Shown here: in pieces, positions 1-14,454 of the stretch
Layout: every line of letters starts with the position of its first letter
How positions within the stretch are numbered: the first letter of the stretch is position 1
From: a bacterium
GTDB lineage: Bacteria; UBP15; UBA6099; DSWB01
Length of the DNA: 14,454 bases
Assembly: GCA_020061125.1 (NCBI GenBank)
Contig: JAGUYV010000491.1
Coordinates: 1-14,454 of the forward strand
Reading direction: 5' to 3'
Translations under genes and position numbers: made by a program
The notes under the pieces: model-generated
What the model saw: only the letters and a program-made list of their open reading frames with translations
Database searches by the model: none
Told to the model about the DNA's origin: nothing

Positions 1-109
1 CAATCGGCGGCCTGCGCGGGCGCGTGGCGCATGGCCAGCATCGCCTCTTCGGGGGCGCCGCTTCTGGGCGCGCGCACCGCCGGGAGTTATCACGGGCTTC
101 GCCGCTCTC
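1..109 (-). other. Region downstream of rpsO; possible 5' end of a truncated gene
   Basis: This is 109 bases lying 3' of rpsO on the minus strand. No pnp start (the usual rpsO neighbour) is recognisable, and there is no clear intrinsic terminator. A minus-strand frame opens after an in-frame TAA and stays open to the edge through ATG codons at 41 and 32. A GAGG stands just before the first ATG, too close for a normal Shine-Dalgarno. The visible peptide is too short to identify, so a gene here is only possible. Confidence 0.25.
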
Positions 110-376
110 TTACTTGCGGATGCCCACTTCCTTGATGATGCGTTCGTACCGGCGCGCGTCCACCTTGGTCAGGTAGTTGAGCAGGCGGCGGCGCTGGCCG
201 ACCATCTTCAGCAGCCCGCGGCGCGAGCTGTGATCCTTTTTATGCACTTTCAAATGCTCGGTGAGTTCGCGGATGCGCTCGGACAACACGGCGATCTGAA
301 CTTCGGGGGAACCGGTATCTGTTTCGTGCAGGGCGTGCTTCTTAATCAGGTCTGTTTTCTTTTCTGCCTTAATCAT
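110..376 (-). CDS. rpsO: 30S ribosomal protein S15
   Basis: Primary 16S rRNA-binding protein that organises the central domain (platform) of the small subunit and often represses its own mRNA. The 88-residue product matches the usual length of 88-89. The S15 signature is intact: TGSPEVQIA at 21-29, then [12 protein letters not shown] at about 45-56, with H41, D48 and S51 at the positions of the conserved rRNA contacts. The start at 376 is fixed by an excellent Shine-Dalgarno, AAGGAGGTGA, about 10 nt upstream. The frame stays open further upstream to 565, but that part is arginine/proline-rich, unlike S15, and lies within the leader. The gene appears to be transcribed alone from the promoter at 623-650. 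Identification is secure. Confidence 0.98.
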
Positions 377-616
377 AGCGGGTGTGTCACCTCCTTTTGG
401 CGCGAAATGGGGAGGACCCGGCAGGCGCACGGCCAAACGGCAGGCGGTGTGCCACACCCGCGGGGGCCGGCGAAACGCTCCGGCCCGGCGTGTCGGGAGT
501 TGGGCAGACCAGTGTCCTTGCGCATCCGCCCAGGCCCTCAAGTTGTCAATCCGGACTCCCTGCAAAGGGAGCGCGGCGCACTGTCATTGCCGCCGCCGGC
601 CAGGCCGCGCGGCGCT
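377..616 (-). promoter_or_regulatory. rpsO 5' leader with candidate translational switch
   Basis: About 240 nt separate the predicted transcription start (about 616) from the rpsO ATG. Two structures are visible. First, a perfect 6-bp hairpin with a 4-nt loop (556-571). Second, a pair of mutually exclusive pairings: the segment at 453-461 (GCGGGTGTG in the mRNA) can fold onto 444-451 (CACACCGC, one bulge) or pair over 9 perfect bases with 378-386 (CACACCCGC), the spacer between Shine-Dalgarno and ATG. A short GGTG/CACC hairpin also covers the end of the Shine-Dalgarno itself. S15 is known to autoregulate through leader structures in several bacteria. That this leader does so is inference. No other gene is seen in this stretch. 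Confidence 0.45.
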
Positions 617-622
617 TCATGT

Positions 623-650
623 ATTATAGAAATTTATGCGCCGAACGCAA
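623..650 (-). promoter_or_regulatory. Sigma70-type promoter for rpsO
   Basis: On the minus strand the -10 box is a perfect TATAAT (628-623) and the -35 is TTGCGT (650-645), separated by 16 nt. The spacer is locally AT-rich in an otherwise very GC-rich region. It lies just beyond the stop codon of the upstream minus-strand gene, so rpsO is probably an independent unit starting near 616. Confidence 0.6.
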
Positions 651-671
651 GGGCGCGCCCGAAACCGCGGC

Positions 672-1127
672 TCATGCGTACAGTATGCCCAGCATAGGCA
701 GGGACATGAAAAATATCAACGCATACAATATTGACGAACGCAGGCAGCGCTTAATGAACCGCAGATCCGGATTCTCCCGGTCTCGCTTGGAAAACGCATA
801 TTTAATCAAAGCGATGGAGTTGAATTGCTTAAGCATCATGGAATTCTTGTCGAAGGTCTTTTCCGCCCATTCGGTCATGCCCGGCACATAATGGAATTCC
901 CGCCACAGCGCCGGATGGTTGTCCCGCACGAAATGCATGTGAGGAACCATCACGAGCTGGCCCAGCCCCGCCGTGGTCACCCAAAACAGCGCCACAAGAA
1001 TCCATAGTTTGCCGAAATCCACGAACACCGGAACGATCCCCACCCATTGCACGATTGCCAGGGTCCATATCCCGGCGAACGCAAGCCAGCAGCCCGCGAA
1101 ATACAATGACGAAACTTTCCGGGACAT
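672..1127 (-). CDS. Small integral membrane protein of unknown function
   Basis: A 151-residue protein with three likely membrane helices: about 8-35, 41-62 and 131-150. Between helices 2 and 3 lies a basic and aromatic loop of some 65 residues, with a PHMHF pair of histidines at 63 and 65, a WREFHYVPGM stretch near 75-84, and positive charges just before helix 3. I do not recognise the family. The start at 1127 is supported by AAGGA 9 nt upstream. A promoter at 1208-1235 would give a leader of roughly 75 nt. The gene stands between rpsO and a divergently transcribed secreted-protein gene, which says little about function. That it is a real gene is supported by the ribosome-binding site, the promoter and the membrane-type composition. 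Confidence 0.75.
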   Translation of the reverse strand: MSRKVSSLYFAGCWLAFAGIWTLAIVQWVGIVPVFVDFGKLWILVALFWVTTAGLGQLVMVPHMHFVRDNHPALWREFHYVPGMTEWAEKTFDKNSMMLKQFNSIALIKYAFSKRDRENPDLRFIKRCLRSSILYALIFFMSLPMLGILYA

Positions 1128-2925: not shown

Positions 2926-3864
2926 TCAGCCGAGCATGCCTTCGATGATGAGGTCGGTGGCGGCTTCTTCGTCCAGGCCGCGGGCGAGCAGGGTCTGGAG
3001 TTGCTTGGAGTCCACGCTGCCGATGGCGGCTTCGTGGGTGACATGCGCGCCGGGATGGCGCACATCCACGATGGGCACGGCCCGGGCCACGGCGCGGCCC
3101 TGCACGATCTCCTTGCAGTCCACATGCCCCTTGGCGCCGTCCGCGTGCGCGGTCACGGTGTTGTACACCTCGGCGAAGGCGTCGTGCTTGAGCGCCAGGT
3201 AGGATTGCAGGAACGCGCGCGAGCGCTCGCCGCGCAGGTGCGCGGTTTCGTTGATTTTGACCCTGTCGTCGCCCGCGCCGATGATGCGCGCGATGAGTTC
3301 GATGACGCTGCCGGCCTCGCACTCGGCTTCGTAGTCAATGTCCATGACGCCCACGCGGCCCTTGATCAGCTCGAATTCGGTCTTGAATCGCGCGTCCGCG
3401 CCCAGGTGGATTTTGGCTTTGGGGACAACGGTGACGCCGCCCGCTGGGCCGTGCACATGGCGCTCGAAGTAGCTGTAGCACGCGCCGCGGCCCACATTAA
3501 TGACGGCGTCCATGCGGTGCACCACATCCACGGCGTTGGGGAAGGTGCAGTGCGCCACCACCGAGGCACGCGAGTTTTCGCCGATGTTCAGGTTCAGCTC
3601 GATGTGCTGCATGCCGGTCTCGGGCATGACGCCGAAGCATAACTGGATGGGTTTGGCGATGAAGGCTTCGTCCAGAATGCGGAAATTCACGGCCACGCCG
3701 TCCGGCTTTTCGTCCGCGTCCACTTCCACGCCGGGCAGCAGGTGCGCGCCCAGCACGCGGTTGCCCGACACGGTTATCTTGACGACATCGTCCTCGTGCT
3801 TGTGCTCGGCCATGCCGATGGACTGCCATATCGCATCTATGTCATTTTGATCAACGAGGGTCAT
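2926..3864 (-). CDS. sufB: SufB/SufD-family Fe-S cluster scaffold (minimal SUF/SMS type)
   Basis: Scaffold partner of the SufC ATPase; cytosolic Fe-S clusters are assembled on the SufB-SufC complex. The 312-residue product is much shorter than E. coli SufB (about 495) and corresponds to the beta-helical core plus the C-terminal SufC-binding region. C250 lies 28 residues before H277-E278 (motif HEAAIG), close to the spacing I recall for the essential C405/E434 of E. coli SufB, and the C-terminal LLARGLDEEAATDLII helix pair is typical. The start at 3864 is set by an ATGA overlap with the sufC stop and an AGGGAG 7-8 nt upstream; an earlier in-frame ATG (3909) lies inside sufC. With no sufD, sufS or sufE nearby, it fits the two-gene minimal system known as SmsCB or archaeal-type SufCB. 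Confidence 0.9.
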   Translation of the reverse strand: MTLVDQNDIDAIWQSIGMAEHKHEDDVVKITVSGNRVLGAHLLPGVEVDADEKPDGVAVNFRILDEAFIAKPIQLCFGVMPETGMQHIELNLNIGENSRASVVAHCTFPNAVDVVHRMDAVINVGRGACYSYFERHVHGPAGGVTVVPKAKIHLGADARFKTEFELIKGRVGVMDIDYEAECEAGSVIELIARIIGAGDDRVKINETAHLRGERSRAFLQSYLALKHDAFAEVYNTVTAHADGAKGHVDCKEIVQGRAVARAVPIVDVRHPGAHVTHEAAIGSVDSKQLQTLLARGLDEEAATDLIIEGMLG

Positions 3865-4601
3865 TGCCAGGCTCCCTGCCGCTTTTCGGGTTCGTTGGGC
3901 GTTGCGCACATGATGCAGTTTTCCGCGAAATAGTTTTCGATTTTGCTGATCGGCCCCTTGTCGCGCAGGCGGCCGTTGCAGAGCAGGAACGCGTGTTCGG
4001 CCTGCTGGAGCACGGGCAGGCTGTGGGTGATGAGGATCACGGTGGCGCCGTTCTGCTTGAAGAACTGGATGGCGTCGAAGATGTGGTTGATGGCCTGGAT
4101 GTCAATGCCGCTGTCGGGTTCGTCCATGAGTACCACGCGCGGCTCCATGGCGAGGAGGGCGGCGATTTCCACGCGCTTGCGCTCGCCTCCGCTCAAGGTG
4201 CGGTCGCAGGCGCGGTCCCGGTAGGTGCGCGGGTCCAGGCCGACCTTGAGCAGCGCCTGGTCCACGCGATCATCGGACGGGTCTTTTGCGCCCGCGCGGA
4301 TGTACTTGTGAACGGGCAGACCCTGGAAGCGGGCGGGCTCCTGCCAGGCCAGGGTGATGCCGCGGCGCGCGCGCTCGTCCACGGGCACGCCTTTGAGGGA
4401 CTCGCCGTCGTACACGATGTCGCCCTCGAAAGCCGTGTATCCGAACAGGCCCATGATGGTGTTGGCCAGGGTGGATTTTCCCGCGCCGTTGGGGCCGACC
4501 AGGGCGTGAACATGCCCGGCCCAGAATTCCATGGTGAGGTGGTTCAGCACCGGGGTTTCCCCGAGCCTCATCACAACATCCCGTATCTCAAGCAGCGCCA
4601 T
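3861..4601 (-). CDS. sufC: SufC-type ABC ATPase for Fe-S cluster assembly
   Basis: Soluble ABC ATPase that powers conformational change of the SufB-type scaffold. The 246 residues match the family (about 245-260). Walker A is GPNGAGKST at 36-44, Q-loop Q87, signature LSGGE at 136-140 followed by the SufC-like RKRVEI, Walker B VVLMDEPDSGID at 156-167, and switch histidine H193. No membrane segments are present. GGGAGGT 8 nt upstream fixes the start. The stop overlaps the start of sufB, implying translational coupling and equal dosage. Unusual is a C-terminal CIMC pair (C229, C232) after the usual ATPase core, which is not part of the ATPase motifs. ilvD ends 88 nt upstream; a weak promoter may lie in that gap. 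Confidence 0.95.
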   Translation of the reverse strand: MALLEIRDVVMRLGETPVLNHLTMEFWAGHVHALVGPNGAGKSTLANTIMGLFGYTAFEGDIVYDGESLKGVPVDERARRGITLAWQEPARFQGLPVHKYIRAGAKDPSDDRVDQALLKVGLDPRTYRDRACDRTLSGGERKRVEIAALLAMEPRVVLMDEPDSGIDIQAINHIFDAIQFFKQNGATVILITHSLPVLQQAEHAFLLCNGRLRDKGPISKIENYFAENCIMCATPNEPEKRQGAWQ

Positions 4602-6390: not shown

Positions 6391-7773
6391 TTATTGACTG
6401 CTGAATTGCTTGTACAGATCGTCGAGGATTTTATCCGTAGCGTCGGAATATCCCACGGCCACATGCCGGATCACGCCCTTTTTGTCCACCACAACCCACT
6501 GCGGAACCCCGCCCACAAAATACTGATACAGAACATCGCCGGTGGGGTCGTAGACAATGGGATACGGAATCTTGTTCAGGGAAGCGAATTGATGCATTTG
6601 AGCGCGGTACTCCGGCCCGCTGTCCGGGGATACTGCGATGATTTCGAATTTGGGATTTGCAGCGTTCACGAGTTCGTAGTCAACGAGCTTGAGGAGCATG
6701 TTCCTTGAGTGAGGGCAGCCGAGGGTGAAGAACACCAGGACAGCAGGTTTGCGCGCCAGGGCATCGGCCAGCGCATGGGCTTTGCCGTCTGCGTCCTGCA
6801 ACGAGAAAACGGGCGCTTGCTGCCCCATGAGTTCATTGGGATCGTGCTTTTCCGCATAAAGGCCGGAGTCCGGGAACCGCATGGGCTTGCCGTCGCGCGC
6901 CTGTTCCGCGATTTGCGCAATGGAAAGTTTGCCCTGCGTGATCATCGGCTCATTGAAATCCGCGAACGCGCCCGCGCGCAAAATTCCGTCTTTGTCCACC
7001 ACGATGAATGTGGGCGCTGCCGCCGCGTTCAGGGCCTTGGCGGTTTCTCCGAGGGGATCCAGATAAACGGTTCCCTTGTATCCCGCCTTTTTAAGAGCGG
7101 CGTCCACGGTTTTGGCGTCGAGTTCCGGCGCGGGGATGGGGACCAGGGCCACGCCCTGGTTTTTGTTGGCGAACGCCGCAGCCTGCTGGAGAGCGGTTTC
7201 GGAGCGCGCGTCGCCGGGCTTCCAGGAGAGGATGATGATGATTTTGTTTCGGAACTCGGCCAGTGGCCGCGCGGGCTTTCCCTTGGCGGTTTTGATCTCG
7301 AAATCTGGGGCCGGGAAGCCGATGGCGGGGATGGACGCGACGATGTTCTTTTGCAGCGCGCGCGTGGCGTCCGGGTCATTGGCGTTGTGCTGTTTCAGAA
7401 ACATGGGAAGTTGCGCGATGCCGCCCTCAAGGAGCCTGAAACCGTTCACGCCCTTGTCCTGAAGCATTTTGGCGACTTCTCCGGCGCGGCGGCCGGTGCG
7501 GCAGTACACGACCCAAGGCTTGCCGGTGAATTCCTGCGCCCTGCTTGCGGCCTGGTCTTCGGGAATGTTGATCGCGCCCTTGAAGTGGATGAGACTGAAC
7601 TCCTCCGAAGTGCGCACATCTATGAGCGGCACGGCCTCGCCCGCTTTGTACATGTCCGCGAGTTGCTCGAAAGAGATGCTGGCCGGGTCCGCTGCGCATG
7701 GGACCGTAAGCGCGAACAGAAAAGTCAATGCGATAAGGTACGGATTGATAATTTTTGATTTCAAAGGATTCAC
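6391..7773 (-). CDS. Exported rhodanese-redoxin protein with two thioredoxin-fold domains
   Basis: A 460-residue exported thiol/sulfur protein, by inference periplasmic. Residues 1-28 are a signal peptide (cleavage near PCAA). Residues 33-128 form a rhodanese domain with active loop CRTGRR (C91). Residues 150-290 form a thioredoxin-like fold with cis-proline APTF (P254), but the active site reads SWKPGDA, with no cysteine. Residues 318-456 form a second AhpC/TlpA-like fold with one cysteine in CPHS (C353) and cis-proline VPQW (P425). The start is uncertain: GTG at 7773 lacks a properly spaced ribosome-binding site, whereas TTG at 7764 has GGAAG about 7-8 nt upstream; the signal peptide holds either way. 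It begins 15 nt after the radical SAM gene and ends 18 nt before ilvD. A role in sulfane-sulfur or peroxide chemistry is possible; the substrate is unknown. Confidence 0.85.
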   Translation of the reverse strand: MNPLKSKIINPYLIALTFLFALTVPCAADPASISFEQLADMYKAGEAVPLIDVRTSEEFSLIHFKGAINIPEDQAASRAQEFTGKPWVVYCRTGRRAGEVAKMLQDKGVNGFRLLEGGIAQLPMFLKQHNANDPDATRALQKNIVASIPAIGFPAPDFEIKTAKGKPARPLAEFRNKIIIILSWKPGDARSETALQQAAAFANKNQGVALVPIPAPELDAKTVDAALKKAGYKGTVYLDPLGETAKALNAAAAPTFIVVDKDGILRAGAFADFNEPMITQGKLSIAQIAEQARDGKPMRFPDSGLYAEKHDPNELMGQQAPVFSLQDADGKAHALADALARKPAVLVFFTLGCPHSRNMLLKLVDYELVNAANPKFEIIAVSPDSGPEYRAQMHQFASLNKIPYPIVYDPTGDVLYQYFVGGVPQWVVVDKKGVIRHVAVGYSDATDKILDDLYKQFSSQ

Positions 7774-10998: not shown

Positions 10999-11066
10999 CT
11001 ACTGATATGACGCGATTTTTTCCGGGTTCCGGCAGGCGCCCGAATTCGACAGGGACCACTCCCCCT

Positions 11067-11948
11067 ATGAACGAAGAACTTCTGGACAAACTGAAACGCC
11101 ATGCAGCCCGGAGCCGGGGCGGAACGCTCGAAAAAGTCATGCGCGCTCCGGCCAGGCTCATTTATTCCAAGCTGCTCGAAAAACAGTGCATCCGGAACAA
11201 CACCGCGAAAAAAGTGAAAACGCCCACCTTCTGGGGCGGCGAAATGACTGTGGTGTTCCCCGAGGCCATTTCCTGTTTCCTGTACCGCTACGGGTTTTTC
11301 GAGGAAAATCTGACCGCTATTGTGCTGGACCATTTAAAACAGGGCAGCGTGTTTTTCGACATCGGGACGCACTTCGGGTATTTCAGCCTCTTGGCGTCGA
11401 GCCTTGTCGGGCCGGAGGGCCGGGTGCACAGTTTCGAGCCGACGCCTTCCACTTTTGATATATGCAGCGCCAATCTTGCGCACAGGCCCAATGTCATTCT
11501 GAACAACATGGCCGTGTGGTCCGAGGCCGCAACCCTTTCCTTCAAAGATTATGGGGTGCGGTTCAGCGCCTTCAATTCCATCTACGGGGCCAAGATCGCC
11601 GAGGAAAAGGCGCAGGGCGCCGTGGCCAGGGAAATTGATATCAGGGCCGAGAGCCTGGACCGGTACATAGAGGCTTCGGGCGCGCGTCCGGACTTTATTA
11701 AAATTGACGCGGAGAGCGCGGAATATGACATCCTGCAGGGCATGGAGCGCACGCTCACCCAGATCCGGCCCGCCATCACCGTGGAAGTCGGCGACATCCA
11801 GGGCGGCGATTTCATAGACAGCAGGGAAGCCGTCGAGCATCTTCTGAAATATGGATACCGGGCATATCAGCGCCAGGACGGCAGGCTCGTTCCCCACCAG
11901 ACGAAACAGGAATACCGTTACGACAATCTGCTGTTCCTTCCCGAGTGA
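11067..11948 (+). CDS. FkbM-family SAM-dependent methyltransferase
   Basis: Transfers a methyl group from S-adenosylmethionine, probably to a hydroxyl of a sugar or glycolipid in a surface polysaccharide. The 293 residues include the class I Rossmann core: motif I FFDIGTHFGYFSLLA at about 96-110, the FkbM-typical SFEPTP near 122-127, and DFIKIDAESAEYDILQGME near 209-227, the family hallmark. The N-terminal 80 residues are basic and variable. The start is uncertain: ATG at 11067 begins sequence that looks coding but has no clear Shine-Dalgarno; ATG at 11007 adds 20 proline/glycine-rich residues and would be almost leaderless relative to the promoter. It is followed after 12 nt by a glycosyltransferase gene and then a flippase, which supports a role in glycan decoration. 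Confidence 0.88.
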   Translation: MNEELLDKLKRHAARSRGGTLEKVMRAPARLIYSKLLEKQCIRNNTAKKVKTPTFWGGEMTVVFPEAISCFLYRYGFFEENLTAIVLDHLKQGSVFFDIGTHFGYFSLLASSLVGPEGRVHSFEPTPSTFDICSANLAHRPNVILNNMAVWSEAATLSFKDYGVRFSAFNSIYGAKIAEEKAQGAVAREIDIRAESLDRYIEASGARPDFIKIDAESAEYDILQGMERTLTQIRPAITVEVGDIQGGDFIDSREAVEHLLKYGYRAYQRQDGRLVPHQTKQEYRYDNLLFLPE

Positions 11949-11960
11949 GAGCGGCTGCCC

Positions 11961-13112
11961 ATGAATGCGGTCATCAGCACATTGCATGTGAAGCCGGAAT
12001 ACAACCCGAGCCAGGAGGTCTATGTTCACGGGCTTCTGTCGGGGCTGGCGCAGTGCGCGCCGCGGGACGCGCGCATCACGGTTCTGGTCACGCCACGGAA
12101 TCGCGCGCTGTTCCCACTGGACGCATTCGAGGCCGTGGAGTGCAATCCTCCTGCCTCGGCATCGCGCCGCATCCTGTGGGAGCAAAAGAATCTGCCGCCG
12201 CTTCTGGACAAACTCGGCGCCGCTGTGTACCACGGCACGGGAAACATGATGGCGTTCAAATGGCGCGGTCCGCAGGCCGTAACCGTGCATCTTGCCATGG
12301 AGTTCAAGGTGACGGGCGGCCTGCGGCACACGGCACAAATCGCCTGGCGCAAGTGGATCATCCATCGCACCGCGCACAGGGCGCACGCTGTGATCTGCGC
12401 ATCGCAGTATCTCAAGGACGGACTCCGGCGGGTGCACGCGCTGCCGCACGCGGACCACATCCATGTCGTTCCCATGGGCGTGGACCAGAGCCTGTTCCAC
12501 CCGCTTCCCGACGATGCGGAAGACCGGGAGACACTGTCCCGTTTAAGCATCAATGGTCCGTTCTTTTTCGGCTATGCGGACATCCTGGGATTGAAAAATG
12601 TGCCACGCATTCTGGTCGCGTGGGAACAGTTGCGCCGCCAGCCGCAATGCCCGCCCGTGAAACTCGTGCTCATGGGCGATCCAGCGAGCCGCAATTTCGT
12701 GCGGCGCGAGCTTGCCGCGCTCGGACCGCTGGAGCGGGATGTCATCTTTCCCGGGTTCGTGACGAGGCGGGACCTGGCGGCGCTGTACCGAGGGGCGCTC
12801 GCCCTGGTGTTCCCCTCCCTCGCCGAGTCATTCGGCCTGTGCATCATTGAGGCCATGGCCTGCGGCGCGCCTGTCATTACGAGCAATGTCACCGCCATGC
12901 CCGAAGTGGCGGGCAGCGCGGCGCTTCTGGTGGACCCGACAGACACAAACCAGATACGCGACGCCATGGGCCTCGTGGCGCGCGACGAGGACGCGCGGGC
13001 GCGACTGGCCGCGGCCAGTCGCGTTCGTGCACGCGATTTTTCATGGGAGAACACGGCCCGGCGCACACTCGACATTTATTCCCAACTGGCGGCGCGGCAG
13101 CAATCATCGTGA
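11961..13112 (+). CDS. GT4-type glycosyltransferase
   Basis: Retaining GT-B glycosyltransferase, probably adding a sugar from a nucleotide-sugar donor to a lipid-linked glycan at the inner face of the cytoplasmic membrane. The 383 residues are full length for GT4. The N-terminal acceptor domain holds YNPSQEVYVHGLLSGLA near 14-30 and a VYHGTGN element near 89-95. The linker VVPMGVDQSLFHP is typical. The donor domain has the EX7E motif ESFGLCIIE (E289, E297) followed by AMACGAPVITS and an EVAGSAALLVDP loop. The donor sugar cannot be read from sequence. The ribosome-binding site is weak, so coupling to the methyltransferase gene 12 nt upstream is likely. Its TGA overlaps the GTG start of the next gene. 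Confidence 0.93.
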   Translation: MNAVISTLHVKPEYNPSQEVYVHGLLSGLAQCAPRDARITVLVTPRNRALFPLDAFEAVECNPPASASRRILWEQKNLPPLLDKLGAAVYHGTGNMMAFKWRGPQAVTVHLAMEFKVTGGLRHTAQIAWRKWIIHRTAHRAHAVICASQYLKDGLRRVHALPHADHIHVVPMGVDQSLFHPLPDDAEDRETLSRLSINGPFFFGYADILGLKNVPRILVAWEQLRRQPQCPPVKLVLMGDPASRNFVRRELAALGPLERDVIFPGFVTRRDLAALYRGALALVFPSLAESFGLCIIEAMACGAPVITSNVTAMPEVAGSAALLVDPTDTNQIRDAMGLVARDEDARARLAAASRVRARDFSWENTARRTLDIYSQLAARQQSS

Positions 13113-14454
13113 CACACGACTCTGGCAACTCCTTTGAATCGCGCGGCTCCGTGTTCCGCTGGATGAGCCTGTTCTCGATCGGGCAGATTTCCGAAAAACT
13201 CTTCATGCTCGCCAAGCTCGTGCTCGTGGCCTACCTGTTCGGAGCGTCGCGCGAGCGGGATGTGTATCTGCTGGCCATGACCATTCCGGCCGTGTTCTTC
13301 AATCTCGTGGGCGACGCCATGTACATGTACTGTCTGTCCGTGTTCACGAGCCACAAACAGGATCTGACCCACGCATGGGACATGGCCAACATTCTGCTCA
13401 CCCTTGCGCTGGTTCTCACGGGCATCTTCACTGCGGGCTACATCCTGGCCGCGCCCGTTCTGTTTCATGCGCTGGCCGGGGATCAGCTCGATTCCGGCAT
13501 GCTCGGCCTGGGCGTGCGCCTGGCCCTGGTTCTGTCTCCGCTCTATTTCTTTTACATGGTTCACGCCATATTCAGGGGCTTTTCCGAAGCGTTTCGCATG
13601 TTCGGCGTTTCCTCGTTCGTGTTTTCCATATCCAACGGAGCGGCTTTCGCCGCGCTCTGGATTCTTCGCGATCATGGCATCATGGGACTGGCCTGGGCCA
13701 CGCTTGTTTCCGAAGCGCTCACCATGCTCGTTTTCGTGCCCCAGCTTGCGGGCAGGGGGTTCCGGTACAGGCCGGATTTTAGGTTCGCGCATCCGGACCT
13801 GCGCAGCACCTATGCGCACGCCGTGCAGCTCACCGCAGGCACCGGGGCGTTCAAATTCGCCACCCTCATCAACAGGGTTTTCGCCCTGTACCTTCCTCCG
13901 GGCATGATTTCGGTTTTCGATTACGCGCTCAATCTGACGCAGAATTTTTCCACCCTGCTGCGTTCATTTGTGAATGCGGTGTTTCCGTCGCTGACCCAGG
14001 CGTCGCACGAGCGCGACCCCGCGTCCATGCGCCGCTTTCTGGACATGGCGCTGCGGGCCATGGCCATCGCGGGCCTTCCCATGACCGCGCTTGTCTGGTC
14101 GTTGCGCGCGCCGCTGGTGAAGTTGTTCGAGCGCGGAGCGTTCAGCCCGCAGGTGTCTCTGGATGTGGCCGCAACCGTTGCGTTCCTTGCGCCGTGCATC
14201 CTTTTGTTCCCTTTCATGTATCTGCTCATCCGTTTGTACGCGGTGCTTGAGCGCATGAAAACACTCACCATTCTCGGGGTGGCGTGCATGGCGCTGATCG
14301 GGGCGTTCAACGCGCTGTTTCTGGATCGCGGCGTGACAGGGCTGGCTCTCGGAAACACCCTGGCTCTGACAGTGACCATGGTGCTGGGCTGGCTGCTGCT
14401 GCCGCGGAATCTGCGCGGACTCGACGCGCGCGTCACGGGGCCAGCCGTGATCAA
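13109..14454 (+). CDS. MurJ/MVF-superfamily lipid-linked glycan flippase, 3' end cut off
   Basis: Polytopic membrane protein; 448 residues are visible without a stop, and the gene continues past the right edge (family length about 450-530). It starts with GTG overlapping the TGA of the glycosyltransferase (GTGA), so translation is probably coupled. Ten or more hydrophobic helices alternate with short loops. MVF-like motifs are YLFGASRERDVYLLAMTIP near 42-60, a YALNLTQNFSTLLRSFVNAVFPSLTQ block in the middle, and PLVKLFERGAFSP before the later helices. The arginine-aspartate pair that usually follows the first MurJ helix is not seen (SEKLFMLAK instead), so I favour an exopolysaccharide or O-antigen-type flippase over the peptidoglycan lipid II flippase. 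The neighbouring GT4 and FkbM genes support that. Confidence 0.87.
   Translation, partial: MTHDSGNSFESRGSVFRWMSLFSIGQISEKLFMLAKLVLVAYLFGASRERDVYLLAMTIPAVFFNLVGDAMYMYCLSVFTSHKQDLTHAWDMANILLTLALVLTGIFTAGYILAAPVLFHALAGDQLDSGMLGLGVRLALVLSPLYFFYMVHAIFRGFSEAFRMFGVSSFVFSISNGAAFAALWILRDHGIMGLAWATLVSEALTMLVFVPQLAGRGFRYRPDFRFAHPDLRSTYAHAVQLTAGTGAFKFATLINRVFALYLPPGMISVFDYALNLTQNFSTLLRSFVNAVFPSLTQASHERDPASMRRFLDMALRAMAIAGLPMTALVWSLRAPLVKLFERGAFSPQVSLDVAATVAFLAPCILLFPFMYLLIRLYAVLERMKTLTILGVACMALIGAFNALFLDRGVTGLALGNTLALTVTMVLGWLLLPRNLRGLDARVTGPAVI

Follow-up and report, generated by a model that had tools for sequence, protein, structure and literature searches.

Gene context and extent of the leader

The question raised by this locus is whether the ribosome-binding site (RBS) of rpsO, the gene of ribosomal protein S15, is controlled by a structure in its own mRNA leader, and of which kind such control would be. 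The gene lies on the minus strand, as do all leader features described below, of a stretch of 14,454 nucleotides (the window) with which contig 11 of a draft genome (4.1 Mb, 79% complete) begins. Its coding sequence (113-376, stop codon 112-110) specifies 88 amino acids and matches Pfam PF00312 with E=1e-35, and the protein has 71-75% identity to S15 of six genomes of the same order. Reading of the sequence places the start ATG at 376-374 and a Shine-Dalgarno (SD) sequence, AAGGAGGUGA, at 396-387, within which AAGGAGG ends at position 390. The first-pass annotation had described a leader of about 240 nt, and this length is supported by a TATAAT at 628-623, a sigma70-like hexamer that is the likely -10 box of an rpsO promoter; the -35 element TTGCGT, 16 nt away, matches at only 3 of 6 positions. 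The nearest upstream gene in the same orientation terminates at 672, and the sequence suggests that transcription starts near 617-616 from a promoter belonging to rpsO itself. We also observed that the rpsO frame is open upstream to a TTG at 565 (110-565, 151 codons), which is probably a chance frame of GC-rich DNA and not an extension of S15.

A predicted hairpin over the ribosome-binding site

The longest Watson-Crick helix in the leader is a perfect 9-bp pairing between 461-453 and 386-378. The first-pass annotation had pointed out this complement between the SD and the AUG, and both its letters and its coordinates are correct. The 5′ arm, GCGGGUGUG (461-453), pairs in the full-length transcript with the 3′ arm, CACACCCGC (386-378), which lies within the SD-AUG spacer, with a probability of about 1.0. 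Between the two arms, CACACCGCC constitutes an imperfect anti-SD that extends the helix inward: the segment CACC-G-CCU (449-442), overlapping the middle segment CACACCGC (451-444) of the first-pass annotation, pairs with AGG-A-GGUG (395-388) with P about 0.83, by way of CACC 449-446 with GGUG 391-388 and of CCU 444-442 with AGG 395-393. In the minimum free energy (MFE) structure an inner stem is added by UUUGGC (437-432) and GCCAAA (401-396). The result is an irregular hairpin of 22 bp spanning 461-378, with stems of 9, 4, 3 and 6 bp, 3x1 and 1x1 internal loops and one bulge, whose MFE is -39.8 (z -2.0 to -2.1), or -41.2 kcal/mol (z -2.1 to -2.4) for the segment 465-374. Clearly, the arms are complementary, and their pairing is predicted to dominate over the alternatives: of 170 combinations of transcript ends, 163 give the stem P>0.5, and the fold is kept under every dangles and lone-pair setting tried. 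An exception is the transcript ending at 340, in which a small GGUG/CACC hairpin over the SD is predicted to compete; this hairpin, too, would occlude the SD. Burial of the RBS by the 9-bp pairing, as had been proposed, is thus the predicted ground state, and a stronger one than first described, since the pairing takes in the SD as well.

We considered an RNA thermometer and rejected it, as the outer stem remains paired throughout the range of 10 to 75°C (P of at least 0.88), which indicates no switch near growth temperature; the pairing of the SD shifts at both extremes of this range. A repeat element was likewise rejected, the segment 374-470 having no second copy in the genome. With respect to the remainder of the leader, a 7-bp hairpin GGGCCGG/CCGGCCC (486-464, P 1.0) adjoins the RBS hairpin, and in longer transcripts the two are predicted to join in a loose three-way junction (503-368, 486-464 and 461-378) whose closing stem has P of 0.79. 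The separate hairpin at 556-571 to which attention had been drawn is indeed present, at chance level, a similar one being found in 55.5% of shuffled leaders. No terminator-like site was found on the leader strand.

These predictions are consistent with a model in which rpsO would be transcribed with its own long leader, the last 84 nt of which would fold as the single irregular hairpin 461-378. As the 3′ strand of this hairpin is made up of the SD and the spacer to two bases before the AUG, ribosomes would have poor access to it in the default state. For translation the hairpin would have to open, either by unfolding of the type attributed to standby 30S subunits or S1, or by translation through an overlapping frame, and a protein that stabilizes the hairpin would act as a repressor, by precedent S15. 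What we infer comprises the promoter, the occlusion of the RBS in vivo, its regulation and the role of S15 as ligand, and autoregulation by S15 would follow by analogy with the gene family. Taken as a whole, the reading of 461-378 as a lineage-specific, RBS-occluding hairpin in a long leader of its own is a tentative one, to which we assign somewhat less than an even chance. As a candidate, this hairpin has more in its favor than the 9-bp complement by itself.

Comparison with relatives

The comparison set comprised seven genomes of the phylum, in which the six relatives are of the same order and each of another family; a scan of contigs for further relatives gave no clear member of the order. 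In all six relatives the gene order, as judged from reading frames, is truB-ribF-rpsO-pnp, with rpsO about 50-60 nt downstream of ribF and a short leader, and the rpsO start sites are unstructured (z -0.2 to 1.1). Unlike these, rpsO of the window has no ribF upstream (window 1-672), and no match to the TruB, FAD synthetase or PNPase families was found in the whole bin; since this bin is 79% complete, truB, ribF and pnp are either lost or missing from the assembly. The long leader is absent from the six relatives and thus is specific to the lineage of the window among the seven genomes. The first-pass annotation had named a lack of conservation in relatives as grounds for refuting the pairing, and the outcome goes halfway in that direction: the leader is missing from six relatives of the same order, and these represent other families.

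The differences extend to the RBS itself. In relatives of genus g3 it reads GGAGGTGACACA-TATG (GGAGGTGACACATATG), in the window GGAGGTGACACACCCGCTATG, and it is precisely the additional CCCGC of the window that forms the pairing with GCGGG; 12 nt separate AAGGAGGU from the AUG in the window and 7 nt in the g3 relatives. A set of 104 rpsO starts from varied bacteria has an average z of -0.45, and a 9-bp RBS helix within 92 nt is absent from all of them. As a separate observation, the interval from ribF to rpsO in one relative (G001, L003) contains a short hairpin of its own, GGAACCATATATGTGTGGTTTCC, which is not homologous to that of the window.

Complementarity at the RBS and chance

The alternative that fares best is that the complementarity arose by chance in intergenic DNA that is rich in GC and changes fast, in which case the RBS would be weakly folded or opened by ribosomes, and unregulated. 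Its probability we also place a little below one half, chance being about as likely as function for the hairpin 461-378. Taken over its full length, the leader does not fold more stably than its shuffles (z 0.28), and a helix of at least 9 bp arises somewhere in 28% of shuffled leaders, both of which agree with a chance origin, as do the absence of the hairpin from the six relatives and the fact that the site was picked after the fact, by hand, from a GC-rich window of 14 kb. Indeed, a hairpin z of about -2 is attained by about 5% of the genes of the same genome, and the accessibility of the rpsO SD, within the lowest 21% of these genes, is not extreme.

The pairing was also evaluated at the RBS specifically. 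Watson-Crick helices of 9 bp that involve the RBS region arise in 0.9% of cases when the upstream part is shuffled and in about 6% when both sides are. The RBS-to-upstream duplex energy is -37 kcal/mol; in comparison with dinucleotide shuffles, P is 0.0008 when these are local and 0.002 when they cover the whole leader. The genomic background consisted of 409 SD-bearing start sites, drawn from about 0.59 Mb of this genome, and an equally strong duplex occurs at 2 of them (top 0.5%), or at 2 of 80 sites matched in GC content. The P values of the duplex and its rank among these start sites speak against chance, as does the placement of the hairpin exactly over the SD and spacer of a gene whose family is known for leader control.

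Relation to known S15 regulators

Published S15 regulators vary among phyla yet include the SD, and they mimic part of the rRNA site by means of a three-way junction or a GU/GC motif (PMC4684408, PMC4137082); inclusion of the SD is common to all known S15 leaders (PMC4137082). The leader of the window lies upstream of rpsO and includes the SD, as S15 autoregulatory leaders do. No GU/GC step is found in the hairpin 461-378, and no compact three-way junction of the known kind, with a GGC triple, was recognized in the leader; the predicted junction is loose and thereby a weak sign of tertiary mimicry of the 16S site. The Rfam S15 family (RF00114), a search that had been recommended with the first claim, gave no sensible match at the gathering threshold or at E<=10; this silence is weak, because an S15 leader was likewise not called at control rpsO loci taken from several other phyla.

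The resemblance to individual systems is partial. In the alphaproteobacterial (Rr) leader (PMC4137082) the RBS is likewise part of the 3′ strand of a helix in the leader and translational control has been proposed, but there a conserved S15-binding hairpin H1 carries the GU/GC motif that the window leader lacks. As in the Geobacillus (Gk) leader (PMC4684408), the prediction contains a junction of several stems, to which the RBS hairpin contributes an arm; that of the window is however loose (16-nt linker), has no GU/GC one turn away and shows no homology. The E. coli and mycobacterial pseudoknot leaders (RF00114; PMC8470358) share the location in an rpsO leader that includes the SD, whereas the window leader has no Rfam match and no evident pseudoknot in programs that do not model such folds. 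Work on regulators obtained from random pools shows that S15 regulators arise easily and independently, that folds without any relation to one another are able to regulate and that it suffices for S15 to bind near the SD (PMC5100602), so that a lack of resemblance is compatible with S15 here; those were selected and tested, whereas the present leader is a candidate known from its sequence.

A more specific proposal is that a leader responsive to S15 evolved independently in this phylum, which is poorly sampled: rpsO would have left the truB-ribF-rpsO-pnp order and gained a promoter and an SD/anti-SD hairpin, with the three-way junction 503-368/486-464/461-378 as the S15 site. We consider it unlikely in this complete form. 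If correct, it would add one more independently evolved form of S15 feedback, consistent with an easy origin of such regulators (PMC5100602), and would link the acquisition of a leader with departure from the operon context; at present the case stands on a single species and modest statistics.

Possible translational coupling and the proposed two-state switch

The leader also contains an open frame of 50 codons (525-373) with a weak SD, whose UGA overlaps the rpsO start (AUGA). Its arrangement is compatible with a possible translational coupling, in which the frame would be translated through the hairpin and its ribosomes would open the rpsO RBS, and may also be due to chance. The frame is indeed open and terminates in AUGA, but this stop is imposed by the rpsO start itself, which reads ATGA, long frames often stay open at such GC content, its SD is weak and the relatives have no counterpart, so that we regard coupling as quite improbable.

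The remaining alternative, a two-state switch in which 461-453 would alternate between 451-444 (ON) and 386-378 (OFF) as the first-pass annotation had put forward, is very improbable: the letters do contain both pairings, and the local hairpin forms in the isolated fragment 465-444 (P 0.97), but the two folds are not of comparable energy. Imposing the local one takes 9-15 kcal/mol in near-RBS segments and 6 kcal/mol in the leader 617-340, and in transcripts that extend as far as the RBS its predicted probability is always about 0. During transcription, after about 430-410 has been made, 461-453 and 451-444 are moreover predicted in other structures. As the arms would be held in other local pairs before the RBS emerges, the SD may be free briefly, which does not involve the proposed switch mechanism.

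Other genes of the window

The protein of 151 amino acids encoded upstream of rpsO (672-1127, minus strand) has no Pfam match and shows apparent membrane segments. At 2926-4601 (minus) a SufB/D-core protein adjoins a SufC-like ABC ATPase, and a frame of 460 amino acids at 6391-7773 (minus) joins a rhodanese domain to two AhpC/redoxin-type stretches, an unusual fusion. On the plus strand, consecutive genes at 11007-14452 encode an FkbM methyltransferase, a group 1 glycosyltransferase and a MurJ-like flippase, which probably constitute a surface polysaccharide cluster.
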